Made by a program: the position numbers and the translations under genes. A stretch of 64,000 nucleotides of DNA from an uncultured Eubacteriales bacterium (lineage in GTDB: Bacteria > Bacillota > Clostridia > Oscillospirales > Oscillospiraceae): contig ONEB01000008.1 in NCBI GenBank assembly GCA_900316745.1, positions 1-64,000 of the forward strand, in the 5' to 3' direction. This document shows positions 12,837 through 29,276 of the stretch, piece by piece. Under the pieces are notes generated by a model that saw only the letters and a program-made list of their open reading frames with translations, searched no databases and was not told the DNA's origin. Every line of letters begins with the position of its first letter. Position 1 is the first letter of the stretch.

Positions 12837-12973
12837 AGTGATGCTCCTTTGATTGTTCATTCTGCATGGATTGTATCACAACTCCGCATACCGTTGCAAC
12901 TGCGCTTGCAAAATTGAATTGCATCCGTTAGAATAGAGCACAATGATATTGCGTATTGTAAGGGATGATCCGC

Positions 12974-13912: not shown

Positions 13913-13920
13913 AAAAATGC

Positions 13921-13955
13921 TTGACTTTCGAAATTAGATTTGATACAATCTAATT
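13921..13955 (+). promoter_or_regulatory. Promoter with OhrR-type palindromic operator
   Basis: TTGACT at 13921-13926 and TACAAT at 13944-13949 have a 17-bp spacer. A perfect inverted repeat overlaps spacer and -10: AATTAGATT (13932-13940), six bases, then AATCTAATT (13947-13955). Binding there would block RNA polymerase. An ohrR gene is third in the transcript, so OhrR autoregulation of this operon is the natural reading; binding itself is inferred. Confidence 0.85.
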
Positions 13956-13983
13956 GTAAAAAATCTTTTAGGAGGCCAAAGCT

Positions 13984-14529
13984 ATGAGCAACATTTATGA
14001 TTATTCCGTGAAAACCCCCGCCGGGGAGGAAGTTTCGCTTGAAAACTACAAGGGCAAGGTGTTCCTCGTCGTGAACACGGCGACCGGCTGCGGCTTCACT
14101 CCGCAGTACAAGGAGCTTGAGCAGATGTACGAGGCCTATCATGACCAGGGCTTCGACATCATCGACATCCCCTGCAACCAGTTCCGGGATCAGACCCCCG
14201 GCACGGACGAGGAGATCCACGAGTTCTGCACCCTGCACTACAACACGCAGTTTCCGCAGATGACCAAAAGCGAGGTCAACGGTGAAAACGCGCTGCCGCT
14301 CTATGGCTATCTGAAGCAGCAGCAGGGCTTCAAGGGCTTCGGCAAGGGCGCCAAGGCCATGGCGTTCGGCGCGATGATGAAAGCCATTGACAAGGATTAT
14401 AAGAACAACCCCGATATCAAGTGGAACTTCACGAAGTTCCTCGTCGACCGCGAGGGCAATGTCGTCGAGCGCTTTGAGCCGACGCAGAGCATGGCGGACG
14501 TCGACAAGGCGGTCAAGGAACTGCTCTGA
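13984..14529 (+). CDS. Glutathione-peroxidase-family thiol peroxidase
   Basis: 181 aa behind TAGGAGG. The GPx signature is intact: VVNTATGCGFTPQY with peroxidatic Cys36, DIPCNQF at 61-67 with the conserved Gln, and KWNFTKFLVDREG carrying the Trp and Asn of the catalytic tetrad. Cys rather than Sec is encoded. In bacteria lacking glutathione these enzymes reduce hydroperoxides with thioredoxin. It is the first gene of an operon with a TrxR-like flavoprotein and OhrR, which fits a peroxide-detoxification role. Length is usual for bacterial BsaA-like GPx (about 160-180 aa). Confidence 0.95.
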   Translation: MSNIYDYSVKTPAGEEVSLENYKGKVFLVVNTATGCGFTPQYKELEQMYEAYHDQGFDIIDIPCNQFRDQTPGTDEEIHEFCTLHYNTQFPQMTKSEVNGENALPLYGYLKQQQGFKGFGKGAKAMAFGAMMKAIDKDYKNNPDIKWNFTKFLVDREGNVVERFEPTQSMADVDKAVKELL

Positions 14530-14542
14530 TCCGAAATGAGCG

Positions 14543-14569
14543 GGGCGGGGAGGTCTCCCCGCCCTTTTC
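14543..14569 (+). terminator. Intra-operon hairpin, possible partial terminator
   Basis: GGGCGGGGA and TCCCCGCCC form a tight GC-rich stem followed by TTTTCG, between the GPx and flavoprotein genes. It could lower expression of the downstream genes relative to the peroxidase or protect the upstream mRNA end. Confidence 0.55.
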
Positions 14570-14589
14570 GTACAATAGGAGGTATCTTT

Positions 14590-15447
14590 ATGCGGTATGA
14601 TATTGCGATCATCGGCACGGGACCCGCGGGGCTCTCCGCCGCAATCACGGCGACGATCCGCAACAAGTCCGTGCTGCTGCTGGGCTCGAAGGATCTCAGC
14701 GTGAAAGTTACGAAAGCGCACGCCATCCAGAACTATCTCGGCCTGCCGAACATCAAGGGCGAAGATCTGGGCAGGGCCTATCAGGCGCACCTCGACCAGA
14801 TGGGCATTTCCGTCACAGAAGACCGCATTCAGGCGGCGTATAATATGGGAGAATACTACGCGCTGCAGGGCGTCACGGAGATCTATGAGGCGAAAGCGCT
14901 CATTCTCGCCACCGGCATGGTGCCGGGAAAGCTCCTGCCGGGCGAGAGCCAGCTCCTCGGCCGCGGCGTGAGCTACTGCGCCACCTGTGACGCGCCGCTC
15001 TATCGCGGCAAGCGCGCCGCCGTCATCGGGTACAGTGAAAAAGAAGAGCACGAGGCGGCGTTCCTCGCGGAGGTCTGCAGCGAGGTCGCATACTTCCCGA
15101 TGTACCGGGACGCGGGGAAGAGTCTGCCGGAGACCGTGCGCGTCATGACCGACCGCCCGACCGAGATCACCGAGGCCGAGGGACAGCGCCGCGTCGTCAC
15201 GGAGGCGGGTCCGTTTGACTTCGACGGCGTGTTCATCCTGCGCGACAGCATTTCGCCCGGACAGCTCGTGCCGGGACTTCAGATCGAGAACAACCACGTT
15301 GCGGTCGACCGCACCATGGCGACGAACCTGCCCGGCTGCTTCGCCTGCGGCGACGTCGTCGGTCTGCCGTATCAGTATATCAAGTCCGCCGGAGAGGGCA
15401 ATGTCGCGGCTTTGAGCGCTGCGGCGTATCTCGACCAAAAGAAATAA
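14590..15447 (+). CDS. Thioredoxin-reductase-like flavoprotein without a canonical NADPH motif
   Basis: 285 aa from ATG 14590 with TAGGAGG upstream. FAD-binding GTGPAGLSAA sits at 9-18 and ILATGMVPG near 105. The redox-active CATC is at 130-133, and GCFACGDVVG near 245 is the second FAD motif. The pyridine-nucleotide site, normally GGGxSA, reads VIGYSEKEEHEA here. Overall length and order match low-molecular-weight TrxR. Loss of the NADPH motif is the hallmark of ferredoxin-linked (FFTR) or other pyridine-nucleotide-independent flavin thioredoxin reductases described in clostridia and cyanobacteria. It likely recycles the thioredoxin that serves the adjacent GPx; the electron donor is inferred. 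Confidence 0.88.
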   Translation: MRYDIAIIGTGPAGLSAAITATIRNKSVLLLGSKDLSVKVTKAHAIQNYLGLPNIKGEDLGRAYQAHLDQMGISVTEDRIQAAYNMGEYYALQGVTEIYEAKALILATGMVPGKLLPGESQLLGRGVSYCATCDAPLYRGKRAAVIGYSEKEEHEAAFLAEVCSEVAYFPMYRDAGKSLPETVRVMTDRPTEITEAEGQRRVVTEAGPFDFDGVFILRDSISPGQLVPGLQIENNHVAVDRTMATNLPGCFACGDVVGLPYQYIKSAGEGNVAALSAAAYLDQKK

Positions 15448-15473
15448 AAAAGACAGAAAGGCAATAGACTGTT

Positions 15474-15923
15474 ATGGAAAACGCCACGAACGAGTTCGAT
15501 CCCCTGCTGCTGGATAACCAGCTCTGCTTTCCGCTCTACGCCTGTTCGCGCAAGGTCGTGAACATGTATACGCCGTATTTTCAGCCTCTGGGCATCACCT
15601 ACACGCAGTATATCGTGCTGCTGGTGCTGTGGGAGACGGACGGTGTCAGTGTGCGCGAGCTCGGGCAGCGCCTGTATCTCGACAGCGGCACACTCACGCC
15701 GCTGCTCAAAAAGATGGAGGAGGCGGGCTTCGTGACGCGCGAACGCAGCACGGAAGACGGCCGCGTTGTGCTTGTGCACCTGACGGAAAAGGGCAAGGCC
15801 CTGCGTCATGACGCAGAGCAGATCCCGCTGCGGCTCGGCGGCTGCCTGCCGCTCACCACCGAGGAAGCAAAGCTGCTCCACTCGCTGCTGCACCGGCTGC
15901 TCGAGGCGGATACGACGATGTAA
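15474..15923 (+). CDS. ohrR: OhrR, MarR-family organic hydroperoxide sensor
   Basis: 149 aa. It shows the OhrR pattern: DNQLCFPLYACSRKV with the reactive N-terminal Cys18, then ITYTQYIVLLVLWE, then a winged HTH with LYLDSGTLTPLLKKMEEAGF and wing residues RSTEDGRVVLVHLT. Peroxide oxidation of that Cys releases B. subtilis OhrR from DNA, and the same residue and nearby Tyr residues are present here. A second Cys (residue 24) could permit a two-Cys-type mechanism. It is third in the operon and most likely represses the promoter at 13921-13955. No ohr peroxidase gene is in the window; the GPx seems to take that place. Confidence 0.93.
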   Translation: MENATNEFDPLLLDNQLCFPLYACSRKVVNMYTPYFQPLGITYTQYIVLLVLWETDGVSVRELGQRLYLDSGTLTPLLKKMEEAGFVTRERSTEDGRVVLVHLTEKGKALRHDAEQIPLRLGGCLPLTTEEAKLLHSLLHRLLEADTTM

Positions 15924-15937
15924 GGAGGAAGCATATT

Positions 15938-17044
15938 ATGGATCGCGGTAAAATCATTGTCCGCACCAGCGTGATCGGCATTCTTGCAAACGCGCTGCTT
16001 GCGGCGTTCAAGGCGTTTGTCGGCATCATCACGGGGTCGATCGCCGTCACGCTCGACGCGGTGAACAACTTAAGCGACGCCCTTTCGAGCGTCATCACCA
16101 TTTTCGGCACGAAGATTGCCGGAAAGCGCCCGGACAAAAAGCATCCGCTCGGCCACGGGCGCGTGGAATATCTCACGGCGGCGATTATCTCCGTGATCGT
16201 GCTGTACGCGGGCGTCACGTCGCTGGGAGAATCGGTCAAAAAGATCATCCATCCCGAGACGCCGGAGTATACGACGGCGTCGCTGATCATCATCGCGGCC
16301 GCTGTCGTGGTGAAGATTCTGCTCGGACGCTATGTCAAGGGCGTGGGCGAGCGCGTGCAGTCGGATGCGCTCATCGCCTCCGGCACGGACGCGACGATGG
16401 ACTCAGTGATCTCCCTCTCGACGCTCGTCGCGGCGGCAATTTTCCTGATCTGGGGGCTTTCGCTGGAGGCATGGCTCGGCGCGATCATCTCCCTTGTCAT
16501 CATCAAAAGCGGCCTGGAGATGCTGCGCGGCGCGATTTCTACCATCCTCGGAGAGCGCGCCGACAGCGAGGTCTCCCGCGGCGTGAAAGAGATCATCAAC
16601 ACCTTTGAGCCCGTGTCCGGTGCGTATGACCTTCTGCTGCACAGCTATGGCCCGGACAAGACGCTCGGATCGGTACATATTGAGGTGCCCGACACAATGA
16701 CAGCCGGAGAGCTCGACGTGCTCGAACGTGAGATTGTGGAGAAAGTTATGGACGAGACGGGCGTGATCCTCACAGGCATCAGCGTCTATTCCGTGAATAC
16801 GACGAACGACGCCGTCGCCGCCCTGCACGAGGGCGTGCGCCGCATCGTGATGAGCCAGCCCTATGTGCTGCAGATGCACGGCTTCTTCGCAAACGAGGAG
16901 GCAAGAACGATGCAGTTTGACGTCGTGATCGACTTTGCGGCGCCCGATATGTCGGCAGCGCACGCCGCGGTCGTAAAGGCGGTTGCGGAGGCGTACCCGG
17001 ACTATCAGCTCAACATTGCGCTGGATCAGGATCTCAGCGACTGA
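15938..17044 (+). CDS. Cation diffusion facilitator (CDF) metal transporter
   Basis: 368 aa with six helices and a C-terminal cytosolic domain. The first metal site lies in DAVNNLSDALSSVIT near 37-51. HPLGHGRVEYLTA follows helix II. The site in helix V reads SGTDATMDSVISL instead of the usual HxxxD, so the two acidic residues come as Asp and Asp. Asp-rich sites of this kind occur in Mn/Fe-type CDFs rather than Zn exporters, but specificity is inferred. The C-terminal part is longer than usual, about 170 aa, with a second ferredoxin-like repeat. The gene follows ohrR by 14 bases, tying metal efflux to the peroxide operon. Confidence 0.92.
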   Translation: MDRGKIIVRTSVIGILANALLAAFKAFVGIITGSIAVTLDAVNNLSDALSSVITIFGTKIAGKRPDKKHPLGHGRVEYLTAAIISVIVLYAGVTSLGESVKKIIHPETPEYTTASLIIIAAAVVVKILLGRYVKGVGERVQSDALIASGTDATMDSVISLSTLVAAAIFLIWGLSLEAWLGAIISLVIIKSGLEMLRGAISTILGERADSEVSRGVKEIINTFEPVSGAYDLLLHSYGPDKTLGSVHIEVPDTMTAGELDVLEREIVEKVMDETGVILTGISVYSVNTTNDAVAALHEGVRRIVMSQPYVLQMHGFFANEEARTMQFDVVIDFAAPDMSAAHAAVVKAVAEAYPDYQLNIALDQDLSD

Positions 17045-17055
17045 CGCAGAAAACG

Positions 17056-17090
17056 AAAAAGCCACCGGACAAATCGTCCGGTGGCTTTTG
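17056..17090 (+). terminator. Terminator of the peroxide operon
   Basis: AAAAGCCACCGGAC and GTCCGGTGGCTTTT form a 14-bp stem around AAATC, starting 12 bases after the CDF stop codon. Confidence 0.92.
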
Positions 17091-17110
17091 CATTTAAAAA
17101 CCTCGTAGAG

Positions 17111-17285
17111 TTTGCCGCTGCAGCGGCAAATAGAGTTTCGTCCGTTTTCCCCGCGCGGCTTCGCCGTGGGGAGGAAAACACTTCTCGCGGAGCGAAGGGA
17201 GCTGACAATCAAAAGCTTCGGCTTTTGAAGCCCAGATCCCGAAGCGCAGTGCATTTCTCTCCGGCAAAAACACAGTTTTTGCCGG
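17111..17285. repeat. Cluster of four hairpins, candidate dispersed repeat element
   Basis: This intergenic stretch is built of inverted repeats. The first is a perfect 20-bp palindrome at 17111-17130 (TTTGCCGCTG/CAGCGGCAAA). The second is a stem at 17144-17179 closed by GTTTTCC/GGAAAAC with an inner CGGC-TTC-GCCG. The third is a 7-bp UUCG-capped stem at 17210-17227 (CAAAAGC/GCTTTTG). The fourth is a stem at 17261-17285 (CCGGCAAAAAC/GTTTTTGCCGG) that touches the stop codon of the next minus-strand gene and may help terminate it. No coding potential is convincing. Four hairpins in 175 bp exceeds what two convergent terminators need. A REP- or MITE-like element is possible; copies elsewhere would decide. 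Confidence 0.6.
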
Positions 17286-17286
17286 G

Positions 17287-18531
17287 TTAAGACAATGTGA
17301 TCTCAGAGATGCAGGTGTCGGCATAGGCGCTGCCGGGATAGACGGAGAGGATCGTGACTGTGATCGAGCTCGTCACACGATCGCCGCCGAATGAGATCGA
17401 CTGCATGCCCGTCGCGTCCGCAAGATCGGCTTCGAGACTTGTGCCGTCGGAGAACGTGACGCGCACGCGCGCCGGGCGGCTGTTTTTGTAAAAGAGGCTG
17501 TCGGACTTTTGATAGCCTGCCCAGATCTGCATCCCGCTCACATGGCAGTCAGACCCGAGATCCAGCTTCAGCCATTCGCCCTCGCCGTTGCCGCCCGCGC
17601 CCTCGACCCACGCCGTGGCGCTGCTGCCGTCCATGGCGAGATGGGGGCTGTGGTCGTGCCCCGCCTCCTGCAGCGCGGAGCTCGCGGAGAGGGAGATGCT
17701 GCGCGGCGTCTCCGGCTCGGCAGCCGCCTTGGCTTCTCCGGTCACGGCGAGAATGGAATAGTCGTTTCTGTCGATGGTGATCGTGCCCTCATCGGCGCTT
17801 TCACCGACCTGCTCATAGGTGAGAAGCAGATCGCCTTCGTCGGTGAAGCGGATGTCGTACGGCCAGATATAGCCGTCTTTGAGCTGCGCGATGCACTTGA
17901 CCGTTTCGCCGTCTTTGTTCACGACAAACAGATCCGGGCCGAAATAGCCGCAGAGATAGATCGTGCCGTCTTCGTCAAAGGTGTAGCCCCCGAGCGCGCC
18001 GGAGAATTCCGTGTTGCGCCAGACCTCAGAGCCGTCTGTCAGGTCGAGTGCGACCACGTCGCCGTCCTCAATGTAGCAATAATGATCGCCGATGATGGCG
18101 AGCTCCTGCACGCGGTCGAGCTGCGAGATCCCGTAGGCGTCGGTCTCGACCGTCCAGAGTTCGTCGCCCTTGTCGTCCTTACCGGTAATGACGGCGTACT
18201 CCTTGTCGCCGTCGGCCTCGTGCGAAAAGGAGACGGAACCGGCGGGTGTTTTCTTCGCTTCGGTCTGCTCGGTCTTCTCGCCGTGATCGGTGTCGTCATC
18301 CGGTTTGTCTGCGTCGCGCAGCACGAACCACCAGAGCGCCGCGCCCGCGAGCAGCAGCACGATCAGGGTGATCAGAATGATCGGAAGCGCCCTGGATTTC
18401 TTTTCCTGCGGCGGCTGGGACGCCGGGGCCGGGCGCGGTACCGGCGCCGCGCCCGGGACGGGCTTGCCGCAGGCGGTGCAGAAGCGCACGCCGGGTTTCA
18501 GTTCCTTGCCGCAGCCAGTGCAAAAAGCCAT
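17287..18531 (-). CDS. Zinc-ribbon, single-pass protein with propeller-like region and discoidin-type C-terminal domain
   Basis: 414 aa. The zinc ribbon uses Cys4/Cys7 and Cys18/Cys21. A Pro/Ala linker leads to a transmembrane helix at about 48-71. An acidic segment and a beta-rich region (about 100-270) follow, with repeats such as DDKGDELWTVETDAYG, DLTDGSEVWRNTEF and DEDGTIYLCGYFGPD that resemble PQQ/beta-propeller blades. The last 130 residues (SASSALQEAGHDHSPHLAMDG, then WLKLDLGSDCHVSGMQIWAG) form a galactose-binding-like sandwich of the type called NADase-type glycan-binding or discoidin domain. The topology puts the ribbon in the cytosol and the sensor domains outside. It is the last gene of the kinase/phosphatase/vWA cluster. 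Confidence 0.85.
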   Translation of the reverse strand: MAFCTGCGKELKPGVRFCTACGKPVPGAAPVPRPAPASQPPQEKKSRALPIILITLIVLLLAGAALWWFVLRDADKPDDDTDHGEKTEQTEAKKTPAGSVSFSHEADGDKEYAVITGKDDKGDELWTVETDAYGISQLDRVQELAIIGDHYCYIEDGDVVALDLTDGSEVWRNTEFSGALGGYTFDEDGTIYLCGYFGPDLFVVNKDGETVKCIAQLKDGYIWPYDIRFTDEGDLLLTYEQVGESADEGTITIDRNDYSILAVTGEAKAAAEPETPRSISLSASSALQEAGHDHSPHLAMDGSSATAWVEGAGGNGEGEWLKLDLGSDCHVSGMQIWAGYQKSDSLFYKNSRPARVRVTFSDGTSLEADLADATGMQSISFGGDRVTSSITVTILSVYPGSAYADTCISEITLS

Positions 18532-18543
18532 TGCAATTCCTCC

Positions 18544-19548
18544 TTAGAAGTTGGCCGAATAGACGTGCTCCGCAAGCGGCGCGGTGCCGAAGTCCACGAT
18601 GATCCAGCCGGAGCCCTGCGTGAGCGGCTGGTCGAGAAGACGGGCGTTGAGCGTTTTGGCAAAGCTGTACGGGTGGCCGTATGCGGCGGTGCCTTTGGTG
18701 CTCAGGAAGTTGATGTAGCACTCCTCGCTCGTTCCGGGCGCGGTGCGCAGGCCGCCGAGGAAGGCTGTCCATTTGTGCTCGGTGTCGTATTCAAAGCGAT
18801 CCTGCACCCAGAGCGTGTAGGAGCCGTTGTCCGAGGATACGGTGTTCAGCGCAAAATTCTCATAGCCGCCCTGGTCCTGCCAGATGAGCGCGAGACCGCC
18901 GTCGATGCCGAAGCTGCCCTCGTCGGCGTAGCGGCGCAGGAGCACGAGCTTGCCGCGCGCTTCATCGAGCGTCGGCATCTCGTCGGTCAGGAGCCACATG
19001 TCGGCGTCGCGGTGGATATAATCGCGCAGCAGCGTCTGGAAGTCCGCGACGCGCTCATCCCCATGCTCCTGCTTCACGGCGAAGAGCACGGTCTCGGTCG
19101 GGTGTTCGCGCAGGAACGCGTAGCACTGTTCGAGCACATCCTCGAGATAGAGGGACGGCGACCACGGCATGGCGCCGGTCTTGCAGGAGGTGAAGCCGTG
19201 CATGAGCTTTAAGCGGCTGCCGTCCGCGCCGAGGCGGATATCGAGATAGCGGAAGCCCGCGTCGAGCTGGGCGCGGATGTCCTTCGTCTGGCATTTGGAA
19301 AAGAACCCAAGCTGCACGTATTGCGTGGCGCTGTCGTGCGTGCCGGGGATGGCGAGCTCGCTGAGCGTCAGGCTGCCGTCGATCTGCGCCATCCAGTCGG
19401 CGGAGCCGGAGACGGTCTCGCCGCTGTCACGCTCCGTGAGCGGGATGATCCACATCACGAGCGCGGCGAGCACAAGCAGCGCCAAAAGCGCAAGGAGGAT
19501 GCGCAGCAGTGTGCGCGCAGGGGAGCGTTTGCGTTTTGTTTGCGTCAT
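18544..19548 (-). CDS. Membrane-anchored PI-PLC-X-domain phosphodiesterase
   Basis: 334 aa from ATG 19548 (GGAG 7 bases upstream); an ATG six bases earlier sits too close to that site. A basic N-terminus and one transmembrane helix (about 14-36) precede a catalytic domain outside the membrane. LAIPGTHDSATQ carries the first catalytic His and RLKLMHGF the second, with DIRLGADG between. LWVQDRFEYDTEHKW and a C-terminal GWIIVDFG segment complete the bacterial phosphatidylinositol-specific phospholipase C fold. The family cleaves phosphatidylinositol or GPI-like glycerophosphodiesters by an intramolecular mechanism. It lies 12 bp upstream of the discoidin-domain gene and about 30 bp after the kinase gene. 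How it connects with the signalling genes is unknown. Confidence 0.88.
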   Translation of the reverse strand: MTQTKRKRSPARTLLRILLALLALLVLAALVMWIIPLTERDSGETVSGSADWMAQIDGSLTLSELAIPGTHDSATQYVQLGFFSKCQTKDIRAQLDAGFRYLDIRLGADGSRLKLMHGFTSCKTGAMPWSPSLYLEDVLEQCYAFLREHPTETVLFAVKQEHGDERVADFQTLLRDYIHRDADMWLLTDEMPTLDEARGKLVLLRRYADEGSFGIDGGLALIWQDQGGYENFALNTVSSDNGSYTLWVQDRFEYDTEHKWTAFLGGLRTAPGTSEECYINFLSTKGTAAYGHPYSFAKTLNARLLDQPLTQGSGWIIVDFGTAPLAEHVYSANF

Positions 19549-19578
19549 GGTCATTCTCCTTGTGGGTCACAGAGATGG

Positions 19579-20634
19579 TCATAGTTCGTCGGGCGCGGTA
19601 AACCAGCCGCCCGACTCGGGCGCTTTCGGCGCCGGTGCCGGAGGCGGAACGGAGCCGCGCTCACGCCGCCGCGTCAGCACGGCGTCCCGGCTCGCTGCCG
19701 CAATGAAAACGCCGGTGTCGGTCAGCGCGTCCGGCGAGACGGCGCCGGTGCCGCAGGGGTCGAGGTCGATGTAATTGCCGAGCGTGCGAAACGCCTCTTC
19801 CAGCGAGCAGCGTTCCTCCGGCTCGCAGGCGAGCATGCGCTGGAGCATACGGCGCAGCGGCTCGTCGAGATAGGGCGCGACTGTGAGCGGCTGCCCGTCC
19901 AGCACAGCCTCGTGCGCGTAGTAGTATTCCTCATTATCAAAGTCCGGGAGCTTGCCCGCCAGATACTGGTGGAACAGCAGCCCCAGACTGAACACGTCCA
20001 TTGCGCAGGTCAGGCGCACCTCCTCGCCGCACAAAAACCGGCAGGCCTCCGGCGCGAGATAGACCTGGTCGCCGCCGAGCTCGTCCTCGGTCTCGGGCGG
20101 CGTGTCCTCAAAGAAGCTTGCGTCGAAGTCGATGAGCTTGGTCGTGAGGTTGCCGTTTGGCGCGGGGCAGAGGATGATGTTCGTCTCCTTGATGTCGGAG
20201 TGGACGATGTGGAGCCGGTGCAGGCGCAGCACCGTGTGCGCCATCGAGCGGCACAGCAGCGCGCGGCGGTGCAGCGGCTGCTTCACCACGTCGGAAAACG
20301 GGATCTGCGCCTTGATGATGCGCGGCGTCACGACATAGTAGTGCGAGCCGTGGCGGAAAAAGTCCACAATGCGCACGGCGTTGCCGTCCGAGCCGTTGGC
20401 AATGGCGGCGTAGAGCCGCTTGCGCTGCTGCTCAAACGCGCGGCACTCGCGGATGCGCCGCTCGCGCAGCGTGTCCGAGAGCCCGGGATCGGTGGGGTAG
20501 ATGGGATCCATGAACTCCTTGAAGAAGTATTGCTTGCCGCCGCGCTCGGCGATCGTCCAGCGGGAGAAGCCCGCGTCGCGGTTCTGCAGCGGCTGCAGGA
20601 GACGGTAGCCGTGGATATACAGTTGTTCAGCCAT
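19579..20634 (-). CDS. Ser/Thr protein kinase of the kinase/PP2C/vWA cluster
   Basis: 351 aa from ATG 20634 with AAAGGAGACGG upstream, overlapping the PP2C stop by 8 bases. The kinase fold is recognisable: Lys39 in YFFKEFMD, HSDIKETN at 145-152 in place of HRD, DFDAS at 169-173 in place of DFG, and LAPEA at 193-197. The N-lobe is divergent and lacks a clear glycine-rich loop. The C-terminal 60 residues are Pro/Arg-rich, end in GGWFTAPDEL and have no membrane segment, so the protein should be cytosolic. Close coupling to a PP2C phosphatase suggests reversible phosphorylation of a shared target, possibly the vWA or zinc-ribbon proteins. Confidence 0.88.
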   Translation of the reverse strand: MAEQLYIHGYRLLQPLQNRDAGFSRWTIAERGGKQYFFKEFMDPIYPTDPGLSDTLRERRIRECRAFEQQRKRLYAAIANGSDGNAVRIVDFFRHGSHYYVVTPRIIKAQIPFSDVVKQPLHRRALLCRSMAHTVLRLHRLHIVHSDIKETNIILCPAPNGNLTTKLIDFDASFFEDTPPETEDELGGDQVYLAPEACRFLCGEEVRLTCAMDVFSLGLLFHQYLAGKLPDFDNEEYYYAHEAVLDGQPLTVAPYLDEPLRRMLQRMLACEPEERCSLEEAFRTLGNYIDLDPCGTGAVSPDALTDTGVFIAAASRDAVLTRRRERGSVPPPAPAPKAPESGGWFTAPDEL

Positions 20635-21619
20635 CTTCACCGTCTCCTTTGTCCGTGAGATACCGCTCGTAGCTGCGGCGGTAGTTGGCCCAGAGCGCGG
20701 ATTGCAGCGCGTCGGTGCGCCCTGCGTGCAGCGGTCGCACATAGTCGCGCTCCAGCGTCTGCACGCGCGGCGCGAAGGTCCGGCGCAGCGTGTCAAAGTC
20801 GCCGAAATAAAAGCTCATCAGCGCAAGCGTGAAGTCGTCGCCCGCCACCTCGGCGAGGATGGCCTTCAGGCGCGCGGCAAAGAGCGCGGGCGTGGCGGCG
20901 TCGCGCAGCACGCGCAGCAGCAGCCATTCAAACTCCATCGGCGTGCGGATGTAGCCGAACACACCGTCGGTCGCGGCAAAGATCACGCCGGGATGTGTCA
21001 GGATGATGCGCTTGTGGTGCAGGGTGTAGGCGCCGTCTGCGGCAATCACGTTCGTGAGCGCGCCGTCGTGCGTCAGGTTCGACAGGGCGTCCTCGCCGTC
21101 GAGGTCGTCCTCGGTGAGCTGCTGAAGCCCCTTCTCATCGATGAGATAGACGCGCGAGTCGCCCGCCCAAATGAGATCGGCGGTGATGCCGTTTCCTTCG
21201 CGCCGCGCCAGGACGATGGCGGCGGTGGTGGGAAAGTCGCGCACCATTGTGCCGCGCACGCGCAGCGTCTGCCGGCCCTGCGCCTTTACGACGGCGAGCG
21301 CGGCGTCGAGTCGTTCGCGCAGCGTTCGGCAGAGAACGTCGGGGTCGGAAAGAGCTGCTTCCGGCAGTGCGCGGTACCAGTCGCAGGCAGCGCCCGAGGC
21401 GGCGCGGGCGGCGAGATACGCACCCGTGTGCCCGCCGAGATCGGCGTAGGTGCGCGCACCCAGTCCGCCGCAGCCGTCGAACACGCCGAGCATCGCCGAG
21501 TCTGTGCCGAGCGCGCGCGTAAAACTGTCCTCACCGCCGGAGGGCGTCACGCCCTGCTCAACGAGCAGCATCGTGTCGAGCGCGCTGTAAAACGCGCGGT
21601 TGAGATTCTGTGCCGCCAC
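20627..21619 (-). CDS. PP2C-type Ser/Thr protein phosphatase
   Basis: 330 aa. PP2C motifs occur in order: GGEDSF near 28, FDGCGGLG at 47-54 (metal-binding Asp48), TTAAIVL, WAGDSRVYLI near 150, FAATDGVFGY, and GDDFTLALMSF with the late catalytic Asp. The usual GHGG is replaced by CGGLG. A C-terminal helical extension of about 60 aa follows the catalytic domain. The stop lies inside the kinase start region and the start lies 3 bases after the vWA stop, so kinase, phosphatase and vWA protein are translationally coupled. Confidence 0.92.
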   Translation of the reverse strand: MAAQNLNRAFYSALDTMLLVEQGVTPSGGEDSFTRALGTDSAMLGVFDGCGGLGARTYADLGGHTGAYLAARAASGAACDWYRALPEAALSDPDVLCRTLRERLDAALAVVKAQGRQTLRVRGTMVRDFPTTAAIVLARREGNGITADLIWAGDSRVYLIDEKGLQQLTEDDLDGEDALSNLTHDGALTNVIAADGAYTLHHKRIILTHPGVIFAATDGVFGYIRTPMEFEWLLLRVLRDAATPALFAARLKAILAEVAGDDFTLALMSFYFGDFDTLRRTFAPRVQTLERDYVRPLHAGRTDALQSALWANYRRSYERYLTDKGDGEDG

Positions 21620-21621
21620 GG

Positions 21622-22308
21622 TCAGATCGAATTGCAGATGGCGCTGAGGATCTGCTCATAGTCGCAGTCCTCAAGACCAGAGCCCGCCTCAGACTCATAC
21701 TGGATGACGTTGTTCCAGTTGTCGCTGATGGTGTTCCAGCCCGGCTTGTCGGGGGCGAAGATGATCAGACGCTTGGCGCTCTCGTCCATCACGCCGGGGC
21801 AGGACTTGCTGCCCCACCATGCGGTGAGCTCGTTGAAGTCTTTCGCCATGCCCCTGGGGTAGTTCGGCGCGGCCTTTCCGAAACCGAGCTCATGCGTTCC
21901 CTCGTCCGACCAGACGACGATCACATGGCGGCGCTTCGGCGCGGCGCTGCTCCAGTCGGAGCGCATCGCGAAGGCGAGCGCCTCGAGACCGTCCTCAGGA
22001 TCGTCGCCGCCGCCGTCGGCCTTGATGGAGTTGATGCAGGCGCGGAATTCCTCCGCCTGCTCGGGGAGGTTGAAGAAGCCCGTCACCAGCATGGCCTTCT
22101 CGCGGTCATAATAGTAATCGCGAAATGCCACGATGCGGATGCGCAGCGCGGCGACACGCTTGTGCTTGCGGTCCATCTCTGCCTTGAAGTCCTGATAGAA
22201 ATTCAAAGCGTTGTTCTTTACGGTGTCGAGGATATGATCCATACTCATTGTCGCGTCGATGCAGAACACGAGATCGACGCCGTAGTCCATCCGATAGTTG
22301 TTCGCCAT
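21622..22308 (-). CDS. von Willebrand factor A domain protein (TerY-like)
   Basis: 228 aa, essentially one vWA domain. The MIDAS first motif is CIDATMSM at 16-23 (Asp-x-Thr-x-Ser variant). RIVAFRDYYYD and the GGGDDPEDGLEAL segment near 110 carry the second and third metal contacts. RRHVIVVWSDEGTHELG forms the later core strand. There is no signal peptide, so it is cytosolic. TerY-like vWA proteins coupled to PP2C phosphatases and kinases were described as TerY-P triads in tellurite/stress-linked gene neighbourhoods. This arrangement matches that triad, but no TerD/TerC genes are present. Confidence 0.88.
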   Translation of the reverse strand: MANNYRMDYGVDLVFCIDATMSMDHILDTVKNNALNFYQDFKAEMDRKHKRVAALRIRIVAFRDYYYDREKAMLVTGFFNLPEQAEEFRACINSIKADGGGDDPEDGLEALAFAMRSDWSSAAPKRRHVIVVWSDEGTHELGFGKAAPNYPRGMAKDFNELTAWWGSKSCPGVMDESAKRLIIFAPDKPGWNTISDNWNNVIQYESEAGSGLEDCDYEQILSAICNSI

Positions 22309-22337
22309 GTGTATACCTCCGTAATCATTGTAGTCGT

Positions 22338-22742
22338 TCAGGGATTTGCGCCGCTGCCGTTGGAGAAAACGCCCGGGAGGGCTGTCTCATCGGCGGGCGC
22401 TGCTTCCTCGGTCGGTTCGCTGCGGCGTGTCTCCGGCTCCGGCGCGGGGCGCAGGAGCAGCCAGAGCGTCATGGCAGCTGAGAGGATCAGCAGGATGCTG
22501 AGCGCGATGATTACGCCCAGAAGCCGCCGTTCGCGCCGTTCGCGCTTTGCAATCTGCGCGCGCAGGGCGTCGCGCTGGGCAATCAGACGCTCATCGGGCA
22601 TGGGCTGCTGCGGCGCGGGCGCGCCGTGCTCGGTGAGTCCCCAGAAGCCGCCGCAGTATTCCGCTGTGTCGGCGCTCTCGCCGCAGGCAGGGCAGCGCTC
22701 GGCGCCCGGCGGGAGCGCGCGGCCGCATTTTAAGCAGAACAT
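22338..22742 (-). CDS. Small zinc-ribbon membrane protein of the vWA cluster
   Basis: 134 aa. An N-terminal zinc ribbon (Cys3/Cys6 and Cys18/Cys21) is followed by a linker, a basic coiled segment QRDALRAQIAKRERRERR at about 56-73, one transmembrane helix (about 74-97), and a Pro/Glu-rich tail outside. It overlaps the upstream zinc-ribbon gene by one base and lies 29 bp before the vWA gene. It probably anchors or recruits the cytosolic signalling proteins at the membrane; that is inference. No named family. Confidence 0.78.
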   Translation of the reverse strand: MFCLKCGRALPPGAERCPACGESADTAEYCGGFWGLTEHGAPAPQQPMPDERLIAQRDALRAQIAKRERRERRLLGVIIALSILLILSAAMTLWLLLRPAPEPETRRSEPTEEAAPADETALPGVFSNGSGANP

Positions 22743-23071
22743 CAGCCCACCCCCACAGAGCGGTCCCAGAGACAGACGCCGCAGTGCGTCTGTTCGGGCT
22801 CGTTTTCACATGCGCAGTTCGGGCAGACCCACCAGCCGCCGCGCAGACCGGGATATGTATAGATGCTCGGTTCCGGCGGCACCACGGGGCGCGTCGGCAC
22901 AGGCGGCGTGATCGGAGCGGCGGGGTGCACCGGCGCGGAAACGGTCGGCGCGGGTTCGGGCATGTCGTCTTCGTCGTCGCGGCGAAGGACGGAACGCACG
23001 ATCAGCCATGCGAGCGCAAGCACGATGATCACGCCTCCGATCAGCATCAGACGTAAGGTGCTCGGCGTCAC
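22742..23071 (-). CDS. Small membrane protein with C-terminal zinc ribbon, GTG start
   Basis: 109 aa starting at GTG 23071, placed 7 bases after GGGAGG and preceded by a consensus promoter. The first 30 residues are a transmembrane helix with basic flank. A Pro-rich linker (about 40-70) leads to a C-terminal ribbon with WVCPNCACENEPEQTHCGVC (Cys83, Cys86, Cys97, Cys100), similar to RanBP2-type zinc fingers. The domain order is the reverse of the neighbouring zinc-ribbon protein. It is the first gene of the seven-gene minus-strand cluster. Function unknown. Confidence 0.75.
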   Translation of the reverse strand: MTPSTLRLMLIGGVIIVLALAWLIVRSVLRRDDEDDMPEPAPTVSAPVHPAAPITPPVPTRPVVPPEPSIYTYPGLRGGWWVCPNCACENEPEQTHCGVCLWDRSVGVG

Positions 23072-23122
23072 GGCGACACCTCCCTTTCTCGTTTTCAAGG
23101 TTGTTTTCAAGGTTATGGAAAT

Positions 23123-23151
23123 ATTATAGCACGCGCCCGGTGCGATTACAA
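23123..23151 (-). promoter_or_regulatory. Promoter of the kinase/PP2C/vWA cluster
   Basis: On the minus strand TTGTAA (23151-23146) and TATAAT (23128-23123) have a 17-base spacer. Between promoter and GTG start the leader holds two direct copies of AACCTTGAAAAC. Confidence 0.78.
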
Positions 23152-23186
23152 GAAAGCGCAGCCGTTTTGGGCGTGTGAAAAAAGCG

Positions 23187-23215
23187 TTGCAAATACTTTT
23201 ACGATTTAGTATACT
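23187..23215 (+). promoter_or_regulatory. Promoter of the DMT transporter gene
   Basis: TTGCAA (23187-23192) and TATACT (23210-23215) have a 17-base spacer. It is divergent from the signalling-cluster promoter 36 bp away. Confidence 0.75.
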
Positions 23216-23242
23216 GTCGCTTATGGAAAGCGAGGAAAGCGC

Positions 23243-24148
23243 ATGAACAAACGTTCCCATATCTTCATGCTGCTGCTTGCGTCGGTGCTCTGGGGTACGA
23301 CGTTTGTGGCGCAGCGCATCGGCGCGGATCACGTCGGCGCGTATACCTATCTTGCCGGACGCAGCTGGATCGCCGTAGTATTCCTGACGCCGATCGTGCA
23401 CGCGTTCGACCGGTTTCACGATCGGCGCGGCACGGACAACCGCCGCCCGCGCAGCGCGGCAGACCGGAAAAAGCTGATTGCCGCCGGAATCGCGGCGGGC
23501 GTTGCGCTGTGCGCCGCGAGCGCTGCGCAGCAGATCGGCGTGGCGTATACGACGGCCTCGAAAGCGGGCTTCATCACGGCGCTGTATGTCGTGCTCGTCC
23601 CGGTTTTGAGCATCTTCATCGGCAAGCGCCCCTCGGCGCATATCTGGGCGTGCGTGGTGCTGGCGCTCGTGGGCATGTATCTATTGTGCATCACGGGCGA
23701 AGAGCTGAAGCTGCAGCTCGGCGACGCGTATGAGCTTGCCTGCGCGCTGCTGTTTGCGGTCCAGATCCTTGTGGTGTATCACTTCAGCCCGCTGGTGGAC
23801 GGCGTACGCCTGTCGCGGATGCAGTTTCTTGTGGTCGCGGTGCTCTCGACCGCACTGATGCTGTTATTTGAGACGCCGACGTGGGCGGACGTCCGGGCGG
23901 CCCTGCCCGCCATTGCGTATGCCGGCATTTTCTCCAGCGGCATCGCCTATACGCTCCAGATCCTCGGACAGGCGAACGTGAACCCCACGGTCGCAAGTCT
24001 TGTGATGAGCCTGGAGAGCGTGTTTTCGGCGCTCTCAGGCTGGCTGATCCTCGGCGAGCGGCTCTCGCCCCGTGAGCTTCTCGGCAGCGCGCTCATGTTC
24101 GCCGCCATTGTGCTGGCGCAGGTGGAGTTCAGACCAAAACGGTCATAA
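23243..24148 (+). CDS. DMT-superfamily (EamA) transporter
   Basis: 301 aa with ten predicted helices in two EamA repeats. Family marks include LLLASVLWGTTFVAQRIG at the N-terminus, ASKAGFITALYVVLVPVLS in the first half, and NPTVASLVMSLESVFSALSGWLILGE in the second. A cytosolic basic loop lies near 55-75. EamA carriers export amino acids or other metabolites; the substrate here is not evident. The gene is monocistronic with its own promoter, and a bidirectional terminator separates it from the convergent nucleoside transporter genes. Confidence 0.92.
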   Translation: MNKRSHIFMLLLASVLWGTTFVAQRIGADHVGAYTYLAGRSWIAVVFLTPIVHAFDRFHDRRGTDNRRPRSAADRKKLIAAGIAAGVALCAASAAQQIGVAYTTASKAGFITALYVVLVPVLSIFIGKRPSAHIWACVVLALVGMYLLCITGEELKLQLGDAYELACALLFAVQILVVYHFSPLVDGVRLSRMQFLVVAVLSTALMLLFETPTWADVRAALPAIAYAGIFSSGIAYTLQILGQANVNPTVASLVMSLESVFSALSGWLILGERLSPRELLGSALMFAAIVLAQVEFRPKRS

Positions 24149-24149
24149 A

Positions 24150-24184
24150 GCAAAAGCCTCACCCATCAGGGTGAGGCTTTTTAC
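24150..24184. terminator. Bidirectional terminator
   Basis: AAAAGCCTCACCC and GGGTGAGGCTTTT form a 13-bp stem around ATCA, between the converging DMT and ABC permease genes. Confidence 0.92.
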
Positions 24185-24194
24185 TTGAGTAATA

Positions 24195-25136
24195 CTATCT
24201 TTGTCCTTTTTCGTACGGGATGCCCTCGGCCTTCGGGGCGCGGGATTGACGCGACGTAAACGCCAGCACGATCAGGGAGATGATGTACGGCAGCATGTTG
24301 TACACCGAGCCCGGGATGTGCAGGTTCACGAGGAAGTCGAAGCCGAAGTACACGTTCGACAGCGCGCGGAACAATCCGAACAGCAGCGCCGCGAGCGCGA
24401 TGCGCGTCGGCTTCCACTGACCGAAGATCATGACCGCCAGCGCGAGGAAGCCGAAGCCGGCGACGCCGTTTTCAAACTTCCACTCGGACACGCCCGCGAG
24501 GATGTAGCAGATGCCGCCGAGTCCGCCGAGCGCGCCGGAGATCAGCACGCCCGCCCAGCGCATCTTGTAGACGTTGATGCCCACGGAGTCCGCCGCCTGC
24601 GGGTGCTCGCCGCAGGCCATCATGCGCAGACCGAACTTGGTCTTGTAGAGCGTGACATAGGCGAAGATGAGCGCGGCGATCGCGATGAGCATGAACCAGT
24701 TGAACTCAAACCCGCCGATGTTGACGAGAAACGCCTTCTTCGGGGAGACGTACTGGATCGTGGAGGACACGTCGTCGGGGTTCGCGGCGGTGTTGATCGC
24801 CTTGACGATGACCGTCGCCATGGCGACACCGAGCATGTTCAGCGCGGTGCCGACGATGGTCTGGTCCGCCTTGAAGTTGATGGAGGCGACGGCGAGCAGC
24901 GCGCTGTAGGCTACGCCCAGCACGACGCTCCCGAGCAGCGTGCACACGACGATTACGAAGGCCGACGTGCCCGCCGGGAGATAGCGCATCACGAGCGCGC
25001 CGCCGAGCGCGCCGATGACCATGATGCCCTCAAGCCCGAGGTTGATGACGCCGGAGTGCTCCGAGAAGCAGCCGCCCAGCGCGACCAGCAGCAGGACAGA
25101 GGCAAAGATCAGCGTGTATTGAATGAGCAGCAGCAT
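24195..25136 (-). CDS. BMP-family nucleoside ABC transporter, permease (NupQ/YufQ type)
   Basis: 313 aa, multi-helix permease of the BPD_transp_2 family. The marks LGLEGIMVIGALGG near 33 and GLRMMACGEHPQAADSVGINVYKMRW near 170 are typical of the second, shorter permease in nucleoside BMP transporters such as B. subtilis NupQ. Its start touches the stop of the first permease. It completes the nupOPQ-like set here, encoded directly after the ATPase and larger permease. The last residues are basic and cytosolic. Confidence 0.93.
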   Translation of the reverse strand: MLLLIQYTLIFASVLLLVALGGCFSEHSGVINLGLEGIMVIGALGGALVMRYLPAGTSAFVIVVCTLLGSVVLGVAYSALLAVASINFKADQTIVGTALNMLGVAMATVIVKAINTAANPDDVSSTIQYVSPKKAFLVNIGGFEFNWFMLIAIAALIFAYVTLYKTKFGLRMMACGEHPQAADSVGINVYKMRWAGVLISGALGGLGGICYILAGVSEWKFENGVAGFGFLALAVMIFGQWKPTRIALAALLFGLFRALSNVYFGFDFLVNLHIPGSVYNMLPYIISLIVLAFTSRQSRAPKAEGIPYEKGQR

Positions 25137-26269
25137 TATGCCTCGCCTCCTTTCCCGGTCTTGGCGCGCGCCTGTTTTTCACGATACTCGCGCTCCTCGC
25201 GCCTGTTGATGGCGTTCGTCATGGCGTGCTTCATGAACAGCACGAAGCCGCACAGATAGATGATGATCGAGGAGATCAGGCTCGAGATCTGCGGGCTGTA
25301 GAGCTTCAGATCCAGATGGCTGCCGCCCTCGGTGATGTGCTGGATGAAGAACGAGGAGAAGATCGTGCCGATCGGGTTCAGACCGCCGAGGAACGTCGCA
25401 GCGATGCCGTTGAAGCCCATGTTCGGAACCGACGAGGCCGTGCAGGTCCACTGCTCGTGGCCCGTCTGGTAAAAGAGCGAGCCGCCCAGACCCGCCAGCG
25501 CGCCCGCGAGCACCAGCGTGAGGATGATGTTGCGGTGCTCCGCCATACCGGCGTACTTCGCCGCGTTGCGGTTGAAGCCCGTGGCCTTGAGCTCGTAGCC
25601 GAGCTTCGTCTTCTCGAGCACGACCCAGACGAGGATCGCGAGGAGAATCGAGAGCGGCACGGCGAGCGTGACAAACTTGTTGCCGAAGAGCTTGTCCAGC
25701 CCCAGCGAGGGGAGGATCGCGGCGCGGCCCGCGCTGAACATGTCGCGCGTGTGGTTGCCGCCGGTCTCCTGGACGTTCGAGAGGATCATGTTCGCGGTGT
25801 AGAGGCCGATCCAGTTGAGCATGATGCCGGAGATGACCTCGTTGACGTTGCAGTAGGACTTCAGAAGGCCCACGACCGCGCCGAACACCGCGCCCGCGAC
25901 GATCGCAAACAGCATGCACGGAAGCCAGCTCCAGCCCCACGCGAGCGCCGCGTACAGGCAGGCGCAGGAGCCCGCGACGTACTGTCCGGCGACGCCGATG
26001 TTGAACAGGCCGACCTTGTAGGCAAAGAGCACCGACAGCGCGCACATCAAAAGCGGCGCGGTCTTGATGAGCGTCGTGCCGAAGTACTTGAACTGCGCCT
26101 GCGGACGGTTGTAGTTGAAGAAGTTCTTGACGATGTTCAGGATCGCCTCGCCGGCGCCGGCGGGGTTGATGAACAAAAGCACGATATAGCCGATGAAGAG
26201 GCCCAGCAAAATGCAGATCAGGGAGGCGAGCAGGGACTGCACGGCGTTGTTTTTCAGAAGCTTTCTCAT
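25136..26269 (-). CDS. BMP-family nucleoside ABC transporter, permease (NupP/YufP type)
   Basis: 377 aa. The first permease of the pair has an N-terminal helix followed by a periplasmic loop, then the BPD_transp_2 core with FNIGVAGQYVAGSCACLYAA, VNEVISGIMLNWIGLYTANM and a conserved GYELKATGFNRNAAKYAGM cytosolic loop that contacts the ATPase. The C-terminus is charged. The start overlaps the ATPase stop by four bases, so ATPase and both permeases are translationally coupled. Family and order match the B. subtilis guanosine transporter NupNOPQ. Confidence 0.93.
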   Translation of the reverse strand: MRKLLKNNAVQSLLASLICILLGLFIGYIVLLFINPAGAGEAILNIVKNFFNYNRPQAQFKYFGTTLIKTAPLLMCALSVLFAYKVGLFNIGVAGQYVAGSCACLYAALAWGWSWLPCMLFAIVAGAVFGAVVGLLKSYCNVNEVISGIMLNWIGLYTANMILSNVQETGGNHTRDMFSAGRAAILPSLGLDKLFGNKFVTLAVPLSILLAILVWVVLEKTKLGYELKATGFNRNAAKYAGMAEHRNIILTLVLAGALAGLGGSLFYQTGHEQWTCTASSVPNMGFNGIAATFLGGLNPIGTIFSSFFIQHITEGGSHLDLKLYSPQISSLISSIIIYLCGFVLFMKHAMTNAINRREEREYREKQARAKTGKGGEA

Positions 26270-27804
26270 TTCGCCACCTCGTCTCTCTTCGCGCCCGCCA
26301 TGTACAGGCCGAGCTCCTCCTGCGTGGTTTTCTTCGGGTCGAGCTCGCCGACGATCTCACCCTCGTACATCACGAGGATGCGGTCGGGCACGTCCATGAC
26401 CTCGTCGAGCTCGAGCGACACCAGCAGCACCGCCTTGCCGGCGTCGCGCTGGGCGATGAGCTGCTTGTGGACGGACTCGATCGCGCCGACGTCCAGACCG
26501 CGCGTGGGCTGCACGGCCAGCAGCAGCTGCGGATCGCGGTCGATCTCGCGGGCGATGATCGCCTTCTGCTGGTTGCCGCCGGACATGGCGCGCGCCGTCG
26601 TCACGGGGCCCTGTCCGGAGCGAACGTCGTATTCCTCGATCAGGCGCTCGGCGTATTCGCGGATCTCTTTGCGCTTCAAAAAGCCCGCCTTGTCCGTGAA
26701 CTGCGGCTCAAAGTAGCGCTGGAGGACGATGTTGTATTCCAGCGAGTAGTCCAGCACGAGACCGTGCTTGTGGCGGTCCTCCGGGATGTGGCTCATGCCG
26801 GACACGGAGCGCTTGCGGATCGGCATGCGCGTGATGTCCCTGCCGCACATCTCGATCTTGCCGGACTTGAGCGGCTCCAGTCCGCTCAGACCGTAGACCA
26901 GCTCTGTCTGGCCGTTGCCGTCGATGCCCGCGATGCAGACGATCTCGCCCGCGCGCACCTGGAACGACACGTTCTTCACGGCGTCGTTCTTGTGGACCTT
27001 CGAGGCCACGGTCATGTTCTCCACGTTCAGAATCACGTCGCCGGGCTCGGCGGGCTTTTTCTCGACGTGGAAGTTCACGCTGCGGCCGACCATCATGGCC
27101 GAGAGATCCTCCATGGTGGTGTTCTTCGTCTCGACCGTGCCGATGTACTTGCCCTTGCGCAGCACGGTGCAGCGGTCGGCGACCGCCATGATCTCCGCGA
27201 GCTTGTGGGAGATGAAGAGGATGCTCTTGCCCTCCTTGGCGAGATTCTTCATGATCGCCATCAGCTCGTCGATCTCCTGCGGCGTGAGCACGGCGGTGGG
27301 CTCGTCGAAAATCAGGATCTCGTTTTCGCGGTAGAGCATCTTCAGGATCTCGGTGCGCTGCTGCATGCCGACGGTGATGTCCTCGATCTTCGCGTCGGGG
27401 TCGATCTGCAGGCCGTAGCGTTCGGAGAGCTCCAGCACCTTCTCGCGCGCCTCCTTCTTCTGCAGGAAGCCGTGCTTGTTCGGCTCCACGCCGAGGATGA
27501 TGTTGTCGAGCACCGTGAAGCACTCGACCAGCTTGAAGTGCTGGTGCACCATGCCGATGCCGAGGTCGTTTGCGTCGTTCGGGTCCTTGATCGTGACGAC
27601 CTTGCCGTCTTTTTTAATGACGCCCTCCTCCGCCTGATACAGACCGAACAGGACGCTCATCAGCGTGGACTTGCCCGCGCCGTTCTCGCCGAGCAGCGCG
27701 TGGATCTCGCCCTTTTTCAGCTGCAGGGTGATGTTGTCGTTCGCGATGATGCCGGGGAACCGCTTGGTGATGTTCAGCATCTCAATCGCGTATGGTGTTC
27801 CCAA
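26266..27804 (-). CDS. BMP-family nucleoside ABC transporter, duplicated ATP-binding protein (NupO/YufO type)
   Basis: 512 aa with two nucleotide-binding domains, as in sugar/nucleoside importers. Domain 1 has Walker A GENGAGKS near 38-45, signature ITVGMQQR and Walker B LIFDEPTAVLTP. In domain 2 Walker A is degenerate (GIDGNGQTE) while the signature MSGGNQQK is intact, and LAVQPTRGLDVG replaces the usual Walker B end. Asymmetric sites of this kind are normal for the family. It is the first gene of a three-gene operon with its own promoter at 27866-27895; the substrate-binding lipoprotein is encoded just upstream on the same strand. Confidence 0.95.
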   Translation of the reverse strand: MGTPYAIEMLNITKRFPGIIANDNITLQLKKGEIHALLGENGAGKSTLMSVLFGLYQAEEGVIKKDGKVVTIKDPNDANDLGIGMVHQHFKLVECFTVLDNIILGVEPNKHGFLQKKEAREKVLELSERYGLQIDPDAKIEDITVGMQQRTEILKMLYRENEILIFDEPTAVLTPQEIDELMAIMKNLAKEGKSILFISHKLAEIMAVADRCTVLRKGKYIGTVETKNTTMEDLSAMMVGRSVNFHVEKKPAEPGDVILNVENMTVASKVHKNDAVKNVSFQVRAGEIVCIAGIDGNGQTELVYGLSGLEPLKSGKIEMCGRDITRMPIRKRSVSGMSHIPEDRHKHGLVLDYSLEYNIVLQRYFEPQFTDKAGFLKRKEIREYAERLIEEYDVRSGQGPVTTARAMSGGNQQKAIIAREIDRDPQLLLAVQPTRGLDVGAIESVHKQLIAQRDAGKAVLLVSLELDEVMDVPDRILVMYEGEIVGELDPKKTTQEELGLYMAGAKRDEVAK

Positions 27805-27865
27805 GTCTCATGCCCTCCTTTCGGATTATGCCGCGCAAACCGGACGCGCGGGCACATATATGATT

Positions 27866-27895
27866 ATTATACAATACGCGCCACTGCAAAGTAAA
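27866..27895 (-). promoter_or_regulatory. Promoter of the nucleoside transporter ATPase/permease operon
   Basis: Minus-strand TTTACT (27895-27890) and TATAAT (27871-27866) are separated by 18 bases. It lies downstream of the lipoprotein terminator, so the three transporter genes can be expressed apart from the lipoprotein. Confidence 0.65.
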
Positions 27896-27949
27896 GGGAA
27901 ATTGTCGGAAACGCAGACATTTTGCCGGATGAAGGTATTTTTGCGCAGC

Positions 27950-27983: not shown

Positions 27984-27996
27984 GATTGGAATCGGC

Positions 27997-29205: not shown

Positions 29206-29276
29206 ACTGTGTTCCTCCATTTTCAAATTTGTCCAAAGGACATATTTTGCGTAATTTGTCGCTTTACGCTCCTAAG

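Follow-up and report, generated by a model that had tools for sequence, protein, structure and literature searches.

The 64,000-nucleotide window analyzed here (contig ONEB01000008.1 of assembly GCA_900316745.1, from an uncultured Eubacteriales bacterium) holds on its minus strand a cluster of seven genes built around a vWA protein, a PP2C phosphatase and a Ser/Thr kinase. It represents a variant form of the TerY-P triad, which is already known. Two features of its relatives, zinc-ribbon membrane proteins that recur beside the triad and a short C-terminal tail shared by kinases and neighboring proteins, are consistent with a membrane phospho-switch that recruits interchangeable partners. All seven open reading frames (ORFs) are open and are tightly packed into one unit running from 23071 to 17287; ZR1 and ZR2 overlap by 1 bp, PP2C and the kinase by 8 bp, and the remaining intergenic gaps are 2–30 bp. 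The features, in the order of transcription, are as follows.

23123..23151, minus strand: promoter-like site, TTGTAA-17-TATAAT with an extended TG, from a consensus scan (10/12 positions match)
22742..23071, minus strand: ZR1, GTG start, a single N-terminal transmembrane (TM) segment and a C-terminal RanBP2-like ribbon, W-x-C-P-x-C-x-x-E-N...C-x-x-C, from the ORF and its translation; counterparts lie near the triad in relatives
22338..22742, minus strand: ZR2, an N-terminal ribbon, then a C-G-G-F motif, then a single TM; Zn_Ribbon_1 match just below cut-off, with the ribbon and GF motif recurring upstream of vWA in relatives
21622..22308, minus strand: vWA protein (VWA_4, 36.5 bits)
20627..21619, minus strand: PP2C phosphatase, GTG start, metal motifs present (PP2C_2, 32.2 bits; motif table over 28 relatives)
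19579..20634, minus strand: Ser/Thr kinase with HSD and DFD (Pkinase, 68.8 bits; motif table over 29 relatives; structure model)
19582..19605, minus strand: codons of the kinase C-terminal tail, WFTAPDEL, closing a stretch predicted to be disordered (profile score; model confidence)
18544..19548, minus strand: PI-PLC-X protein with one N-terminal TM and the domain predicted outside (PF00388, 37.7 bits)
17287..18531, minus strand: DSC, a ribbon-TM-ectodomain protein whose ectodomain ends in an NADase-type glycan-binding discoidin domain (Zn_Ribbon_1, 29 bits; PF25302; NF047619)
17057..17089, minus strand: terminator-like hairpin of 15 pairs with a T-rich tail, from a consensus scan

The region contains two promoter-like sites against a shuffle mean of 0.9, and eight terminator-like hairpins against a shuffle mean of 4.7. 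A preliminary description of this DNA had proposed a single minus-strand unit of adjoining or overlapping genes with a consensus promoter, and a kinase carrying HSD and DFD in place of HRD and DFG; both proposals are borne out. Its domain list stands in large part, as the vWA, PP2C, kinase, PI-PLC-X (37.7 bits, cut-off 23.1) and last-gene ribbon assignments all exceed their Pfam cut-offs. ZR2 falls just short (Zn_Ribbon_1, 24.2 against 25 bits) and ZR1 well short (RanBP ribbon, 14.5 against 27), so the ribbon calls for these two proteins rest on their cysteine pattern and on recurrence in relatives. The discoidin domain of the last gene is of the NADase-type glycan-binding kind (PF25302, NADase_transloc, 97.2 bits; NCBIfam NF047619, 145.1 bits).

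The ten genes that flank the cluster (11614–29226) belong to metabolism, regulation and transport, and no ter, restriction or defense gene was found among them. The vWA protein has a single match in the source assembly (2.44 Mb, 39 contigs).

The kinases of this family have an unusual catalytic signature. None of the 29 has R as the middle residue of the HxD motif, where S, A, F, T or G stands instead; 27 have DFD, the exceptions being DLG in locus L005 and DYD in L008. All 29, window included, retain the Lys, the Asp residues of HxD and DFx and the Asn that comes after the former, with an uncertain assignment for the Glu of helix C. Judged by these residues, the protein is predicted to be an active Ser/Thr kinase in which DFG is replaced by DFD. 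The metal-binding Asp motifs of the phosphatase are likewise present (GGED, DGCGG, GDSR, ATDG and GDD).

The three core proteins are kept together. With near-copies dropped and the window included, vWA, PP2C and kinase co-occur in 27 of 30 loci; PP2C is missing nearby in L005 and L010, and the kinase is missing in L030, at a contig end, but is present on another contig of that genome. The vWA protein is rare in the genomes surveyed: matches at an expectation value (E) of 0.001 or below occur in 6/200 genomes of the family, 7/295 of the order, 18/391 of the class and 4/398 of the phylum, counts that include the window genome each time as well as short matches in longer frames, and matches over most of the protein number 4, 5, 14 and 1, respectively. 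On named genome contigs we find 11 vWA loci, seven of them in Lachnospiraceae and the others in Anaeromassilibacillus, Oscillospiraceae, Clostridiales and Clostridia. A plasmid collection yields just two matches, from Herpetosiphon (48% identity), where vWA is followed by a PP2C relative and then a kinase, and from Calothrix (41%), where a kinase comes next, along with a large protein with PP2C-like motifs read by eye.

Membrane ribbon proteins are conserved with the triad in these relatives. The usual gene order is ZR1, ZR2, vWA, PP2C, kinase (exceptions include L010 and L011). ZR1 counterparts combine the RanBP2-like ribbon (W-x-C-P-x-C-x-x-E-N) with one TM in variable order, and ZR2 counterparts have a ribbon, then a G-F motif, plus a TM. 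Among non-triad genes within 5 kb of vWA, 65/199 encode a ribbon together with a TM, compared with 5/208 farther out in the same loci and 7/544 in 40 control regions taken from 20 of these genomes; 28 of the 30 loci have at least one such gene. Plasmid pHAU01 of Herpetosiphon carries an unannotated ORF of 82 codons that overlaps the end of the kinase gene (L093:9839-10087) and encodes a RanBP2-like ribbon and a C-terminal TM, like ZR1. The ribbon-triad link may therefore predate the Clostridia, on the strength of this one case. These counts uphold the earlier proposal that the triad is here detached from ter genes and joined to membrane ribbon proteins.

They also bear on one alternative, that this is an ordinary TerY-P triad serving phage defense or stress, with membrane neighbors present by chance. 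Triads of the TerY-P type whose kinase bears a C-terminal ribbon are described beside restriction systems, and OB-fold versions as stand-alone defense (PMC11090510). The L015 kinase bears just such a ribbon; a full CxxC pair is found in the L015 tail and a partial one in L014 among the 29 kinase tails, while the window kinase tail has none. The window kinase domain matches several PADLOC defense kinase models, which we take as general kinase similarity. The chance-neighbor explanation sits poorly with the large excess of ribbon-TM genes over control regions and with the lack of restriction or ter genes among the ten neighbors scanned. Moreover, neither the vWA and PP2C proteins of the window and L008 nor the vWA protein of L032 have a PADLOC match at E values up to 10, in a library whose content of TerY-P models was not checked. 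We consider this explanation improbable. The L015 ribbon also fits a ribbon and a kinase that work together.

The other two membrane genes of the window behave differently. PI-PLC-X is present in 1 of 29 triad genomes, namely the window's own, and PF25302 matches 7/29 (5/29 over cut-off) and lies on the triad contig only in the window; several of these 29 genomes are incomplete. We therefore reject the seven-gene set as a conserved unit. The preliminary description had remarked that non-conservation of the PI-PLC, ribbon and discoidin genes beside the triad would refute its reading: the PI-PLC and discoidin genes are indeed not kept, and the ribbon genes are. We class the PI-PLC and the discoidin-type domain as local cargo, not as conserved parts of the system. 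Other loci carry different ribbon or surface proteins in their place. Large FHA proteins with a ribbon and several TMs lie beside the triad in L004:13609-15762 and L012:10418-13180 and are candidate readers of triad phosphorylation. L005 has a lectin-bearing GH25 lysozyme, L011 an M23 peptidase with lectin repeats and L007 an OmpA-type protein near the triad, and downstream of the L007 triad lies a 1,513-residue FtsK/SpoIIIE ATPase (L007:12963-17504) with small genes behind it, an arrangement that resembles a type VII secretion cluster. The partners in L004, L005, L007, L011 and L012 are tied to the system through adjacency alone.

A second feature links the kinases to their neighbors. Many of the aligned kinases have [WF]F-x-x-A-G-D-L, exact or varied, as their very last residues; the window kinase ends in WFTAPDEL. 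We built a profile from 26 of the 29 kinase tails, excluding three divergent ones, and scored each ORF with its own locus left out. The window kinase tail scores 11.5, against a maximum of 7.1 among 2,087 control ORFs, and 20/26 kinases exceed that maximum. Besides the triad kinases, 17 ORFs score above 10; these are spread over 11 loci and all lie on the strand of the triad. Three further ORFs fall between 7.1 and 10, a range that we treat as noise because two of the three are on the opposite strand. A strict regular expression for the tail matches 13/28 kinases, 7/1,971 other ORFs of the triad loci and 0/2,087 control ORFs, and shuffled tails average 0.003 matches. Within a locus, the tails of kinase and partners resemble each other more closely than they do across loci (permutation p = 0.002, 10 loci).

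At the DNA level, WFxxAGDL followed by a stop occurs in 7/391 genomes of the class, all of them within the 14 that have a near-full-length vWA match. A looser DNA pattern finds 18 places in 13 of the 29 triad genomes, two of them unconfirmed as tails, compared with one match for a reversed control pattern. We rejected G195:C18 as a tail, since it ends in TGG rather than a stop, and G764:C44 as an additional tail, since it repeats the end of the same genome's kinase at a contig edge. G748:C72 (L089:1348-1527) is a 59-residue ORF with a helix-turn-helix-like start and a CFRTAGDL end, located off the triad contig; it is the only possible remote carrier among the looser-pattern places. A search for more tailed loci in the families of G764 (21 genomes) and G576 (16 genomes) yielded no new genome.

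The tailed proteins are diverse. In L024 the tail is found on the kinase, on all four genes between PP2C and kinase, on a BspA-type LRR protein farther along, which has a TM besides a hydrophobic segment at its N terminus, and on a TetR-type regulator. The last of these (L024:7081-7704, PF00440 over cut-off) ends in WFSVGNDL directly upstream of the triad and is possibly a transcriptional output of the system. Tailed ribbon-TM-ectodomain-TM proteins occur in L020 and L025, one of them with a sub-cut-off Lipocalin_4 match, and a tailed 4-TM protein in L021; tailed ribbon proteins have two TMs in L013 and L029 and none in L009, L010, L018 and L026. L008, from Anaeromassilibacillus sp. An172, encodes a second, HRD-bearing kinase that is also tailed and gives no match with the window kinase at E 1e-3. 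In L011 the kinase (L011:10694-11635) and a ribbon protein (L011:13496-13759) share the drifted tails LTVPTELG and LVMPGDLE, as if changing together.

Six of the 17 tailed ORFs encode proteins without a TM; among the others, nine proteins have two TMs, one has four and one has a single TM. In all 11 of these membrane proteins the tail follows the last TM, and Lys and Arg are more numerous on the C-terminal side of that TM than on its N-terminal side. On this basis, that of hydropathy and charge, we predict the tails and most ribbons to be in the cytosol. Degradation and export signals are often short, C-terminal and in disordered stretches, and the tail could likewise be such a signal common to the proteins of the operon, rather than an assembly tag: it is short, stands at the extreme C terminus and, in the kinase, follows a tether predicted to be disordered, and an FtsK/SpoIIIE ATPase gene lies near the L007 triad. 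A predicted cytosolic location, to which the even TM count of 10/11 and the charge distribution of 11/11 tailed membrane proteins point, argues against this, as does the confinement of the strict pattern to genomes with the vWA protein. We regard a degradation or export signal as quite unlikely.

The vWA protein is a candidate reader of the tail. Columns D18, T20, S22, E105, D135, D64 and D102 are invariant in 24 relatives, and P104 is nearly so. We take D18, T20, S22, E105 and D135 to be the metal-ion-dependent adhesion site (MIDAS), and D64, D102 and P104 may correspond to a second metal site, an assignment for which there is a weak alignment; the pair of the integrin site adjacent to MIDAS (ADMIDAS) is apparently not kept. 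The structure model has a predicted local distance difference test (pLDDT) score of 86.6, and integrin beta-I domains are its nearest solved folds, placing it with the beta-I fold. Pfam Integrin_beta scores 23.1 bits on the window protein, under the curated cut-off of 24.8, and matches the vWA proteins of 20/24 relatives by E value, at 0.01 or better. A profile search of PDB sequences gave none at E 0.01, the best being integrin beta-8 at a non-significant E of 0.05, and no NCBIfam model matched at E 0.1. Nine columns discriminate tailed from tailless lineages, and two of them lie in loops assigned to the MIDAS; against a background of 29/102 conserved columns this is no enrichment. L025:9869-10573 is a second vWA copy with a broken MIDAS motif (CIGCTGDMG) next to an intact copy, and constitutes a natural negative control.

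Alternatively, the kinase domain itself may read the tail as a docking site, for substrate recruitment and autoinhibition in cis, with vWA a mere assembly scaffold. The tail is indeed found on kinases and on plausible substrates, and each of the 11 loci that encode tailed partners also has a triad kinase. However, the kinase model assigns residues 295–351 a pLDDT below 50 and does not place the tail in cis, weak evidence from a single-chain model, and the second L008 kinase, with its HRD motif and its lack of a match to the window kinase, is tailed as well. Recognition by the kinase seems unlikely on this evidence, if less so than a degradation signal. We dropped an argument against PP2C as the reader, drawn from its absence near the triad in L005 and L010, as both genomes hold PP2C elsewhere.

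Sequence directly supports the make-up of the gene set, the recurrence of the triad and of the ribbons, the tail held in common and the conservation of catalytic residues. Considered together, these are consistent with a model, to which we give a probability of about 0.6, in which a triad-based membrane phospho-switch uses cytosolic ribbons and a C-terminal docking tail to recruit its interchangeable partners. We infer its topology, docking, signal direction and substrates as follows. The ribbon membrane proteins ZR1 and ZR2 would hold a soluble core of vWA, PP2C and kinase at the cytosolic side of the membrane, where it would work. Interchangeable partners would bring signals to this core or serve as its outputs: in the window the ribbon-TM-glycan-binding protein and the surface PI-PLC, and elsewhere 2-TM proteins, an LRR receptor, FHA proteins and a TetR-type regulator. 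The ribbons and, in many Clostridia-type loci, the tail [WF]FxxAGDL-COOH on its flexible tether would gather kinase and partners around vWA. An outside cue would reach the core via the ectodomain of the particular strain; in the window this would be a glycan-binding-like domain, perhaps joined by the cleavage of lipid through PI-PLC. The kinase would then phosphorylate docked partners or an output protein, PP2C would reverse this, and FHA proteins may read the outcome.

Several observations weigh against this model. Leaving out one locus at a time keeps close relatives in the tail profile, and 6/26 kinases are not above the control maximum. The remaining 7 of the 14 class genomes with near-full-length vWA, window included, have no strict pattern match, and the divergent triads L019, L031 and L032, like those of Herpetosiphon and Calothrix, have no tail. 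In the window the kinase alone is tailed, with none on PI-PLC, DSC, ZR1 or ZR2. The likeness of tails within loci may reflect shared ancestry. As for the ribbons, L019 and L031 have no ribbon-TM gene within 5 kb by the criterion used, TM calls come from a simple hydropathy cut-off, and gene picking at triad loci favored ORFs resembling the window's proteins, whereas control genes were picked by length alone.

The shared tail of kinase and partners and the integrin likeness of vWA are new here, and neither was part of the preliminary description. A search of titles and abstract openings, which did not cover the original TerY-P paper, returned no description of the tail, of this gene set or of a ribbon-membrane version, and the literature consulted gave no answer as to how the parts of the triad assemble or what ligand vWA binds. 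A tail common to the kinase and its swappable partners offers a concrete and cheap handle on the role of such MIDAS domains.

The closest known system is TerY-P, which consists of vWA, PP2C and a Ser/Thr kinase, with a ribbon described as fused to the C terminus of the kinase (PMC11090510, which cites Anantharaman et al., 2012, for the triad). Such triads are described beside defense and stress genes, and a role in metal sensing is merely hypothesized (PMC11090510). Our cluster has the same three kinds of protein, adjacent and in one unit, and again involves zinc ribbons. In contrast, the ribbon is here carried on separate membrane proteins rather than on the kinase (except in L015 and, partially, L014), ter and restriction genes are absent from the ten scanned neighbors of the window cluster, and the C-terminal tail and tailed membrane partners go unmentioned in the accessible part of PMC11090510. 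A related set of kinase, PP2C and vWA is found in actinobacterial GAP1-N2 GTPase systems, in which the kinase is often fused to a zinc ribbon or to TM helices, PP2C is adjacent and vWA stands alone (PMC7159879); the membrane link of our cluster runs instead via separate ribbon proteins.

The third comparison is with integrin alphaIIb-beta3, whose beta-I MIDAS binds the C-terminal AGDV of fibrinogen gamma (PMC4813479). The window vWA model is nearest to beta-I in fold, and its candidate ligand is a C-terminal AGD followed by an aliphatic residue. Unlike the integrin, the vWA protein is bacterial, predicted to be cytosolic and without an alpha subunit, and its PDB sequence match to integrin beta is not significant; convergence or chance is a possible source of the resemblance. 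We tentatively suggest, as a reading that we favor less than the model above, that the MIDAS metal of vWA reads the AGDL-COOH tail, in a bacterial cytosolic counterpart of integrin-ligand recognition. A single kind of tail would then connect the kinase, and whatever receptor, regulator or ribbon protein bears it, to one membrane phospho-switch, and new sensors would be gained simply by acquiring a tail. If true, this would constitute a modular receptor system in which membership is set by a short tail and a zinc ribbon, rather than by a fused domain.

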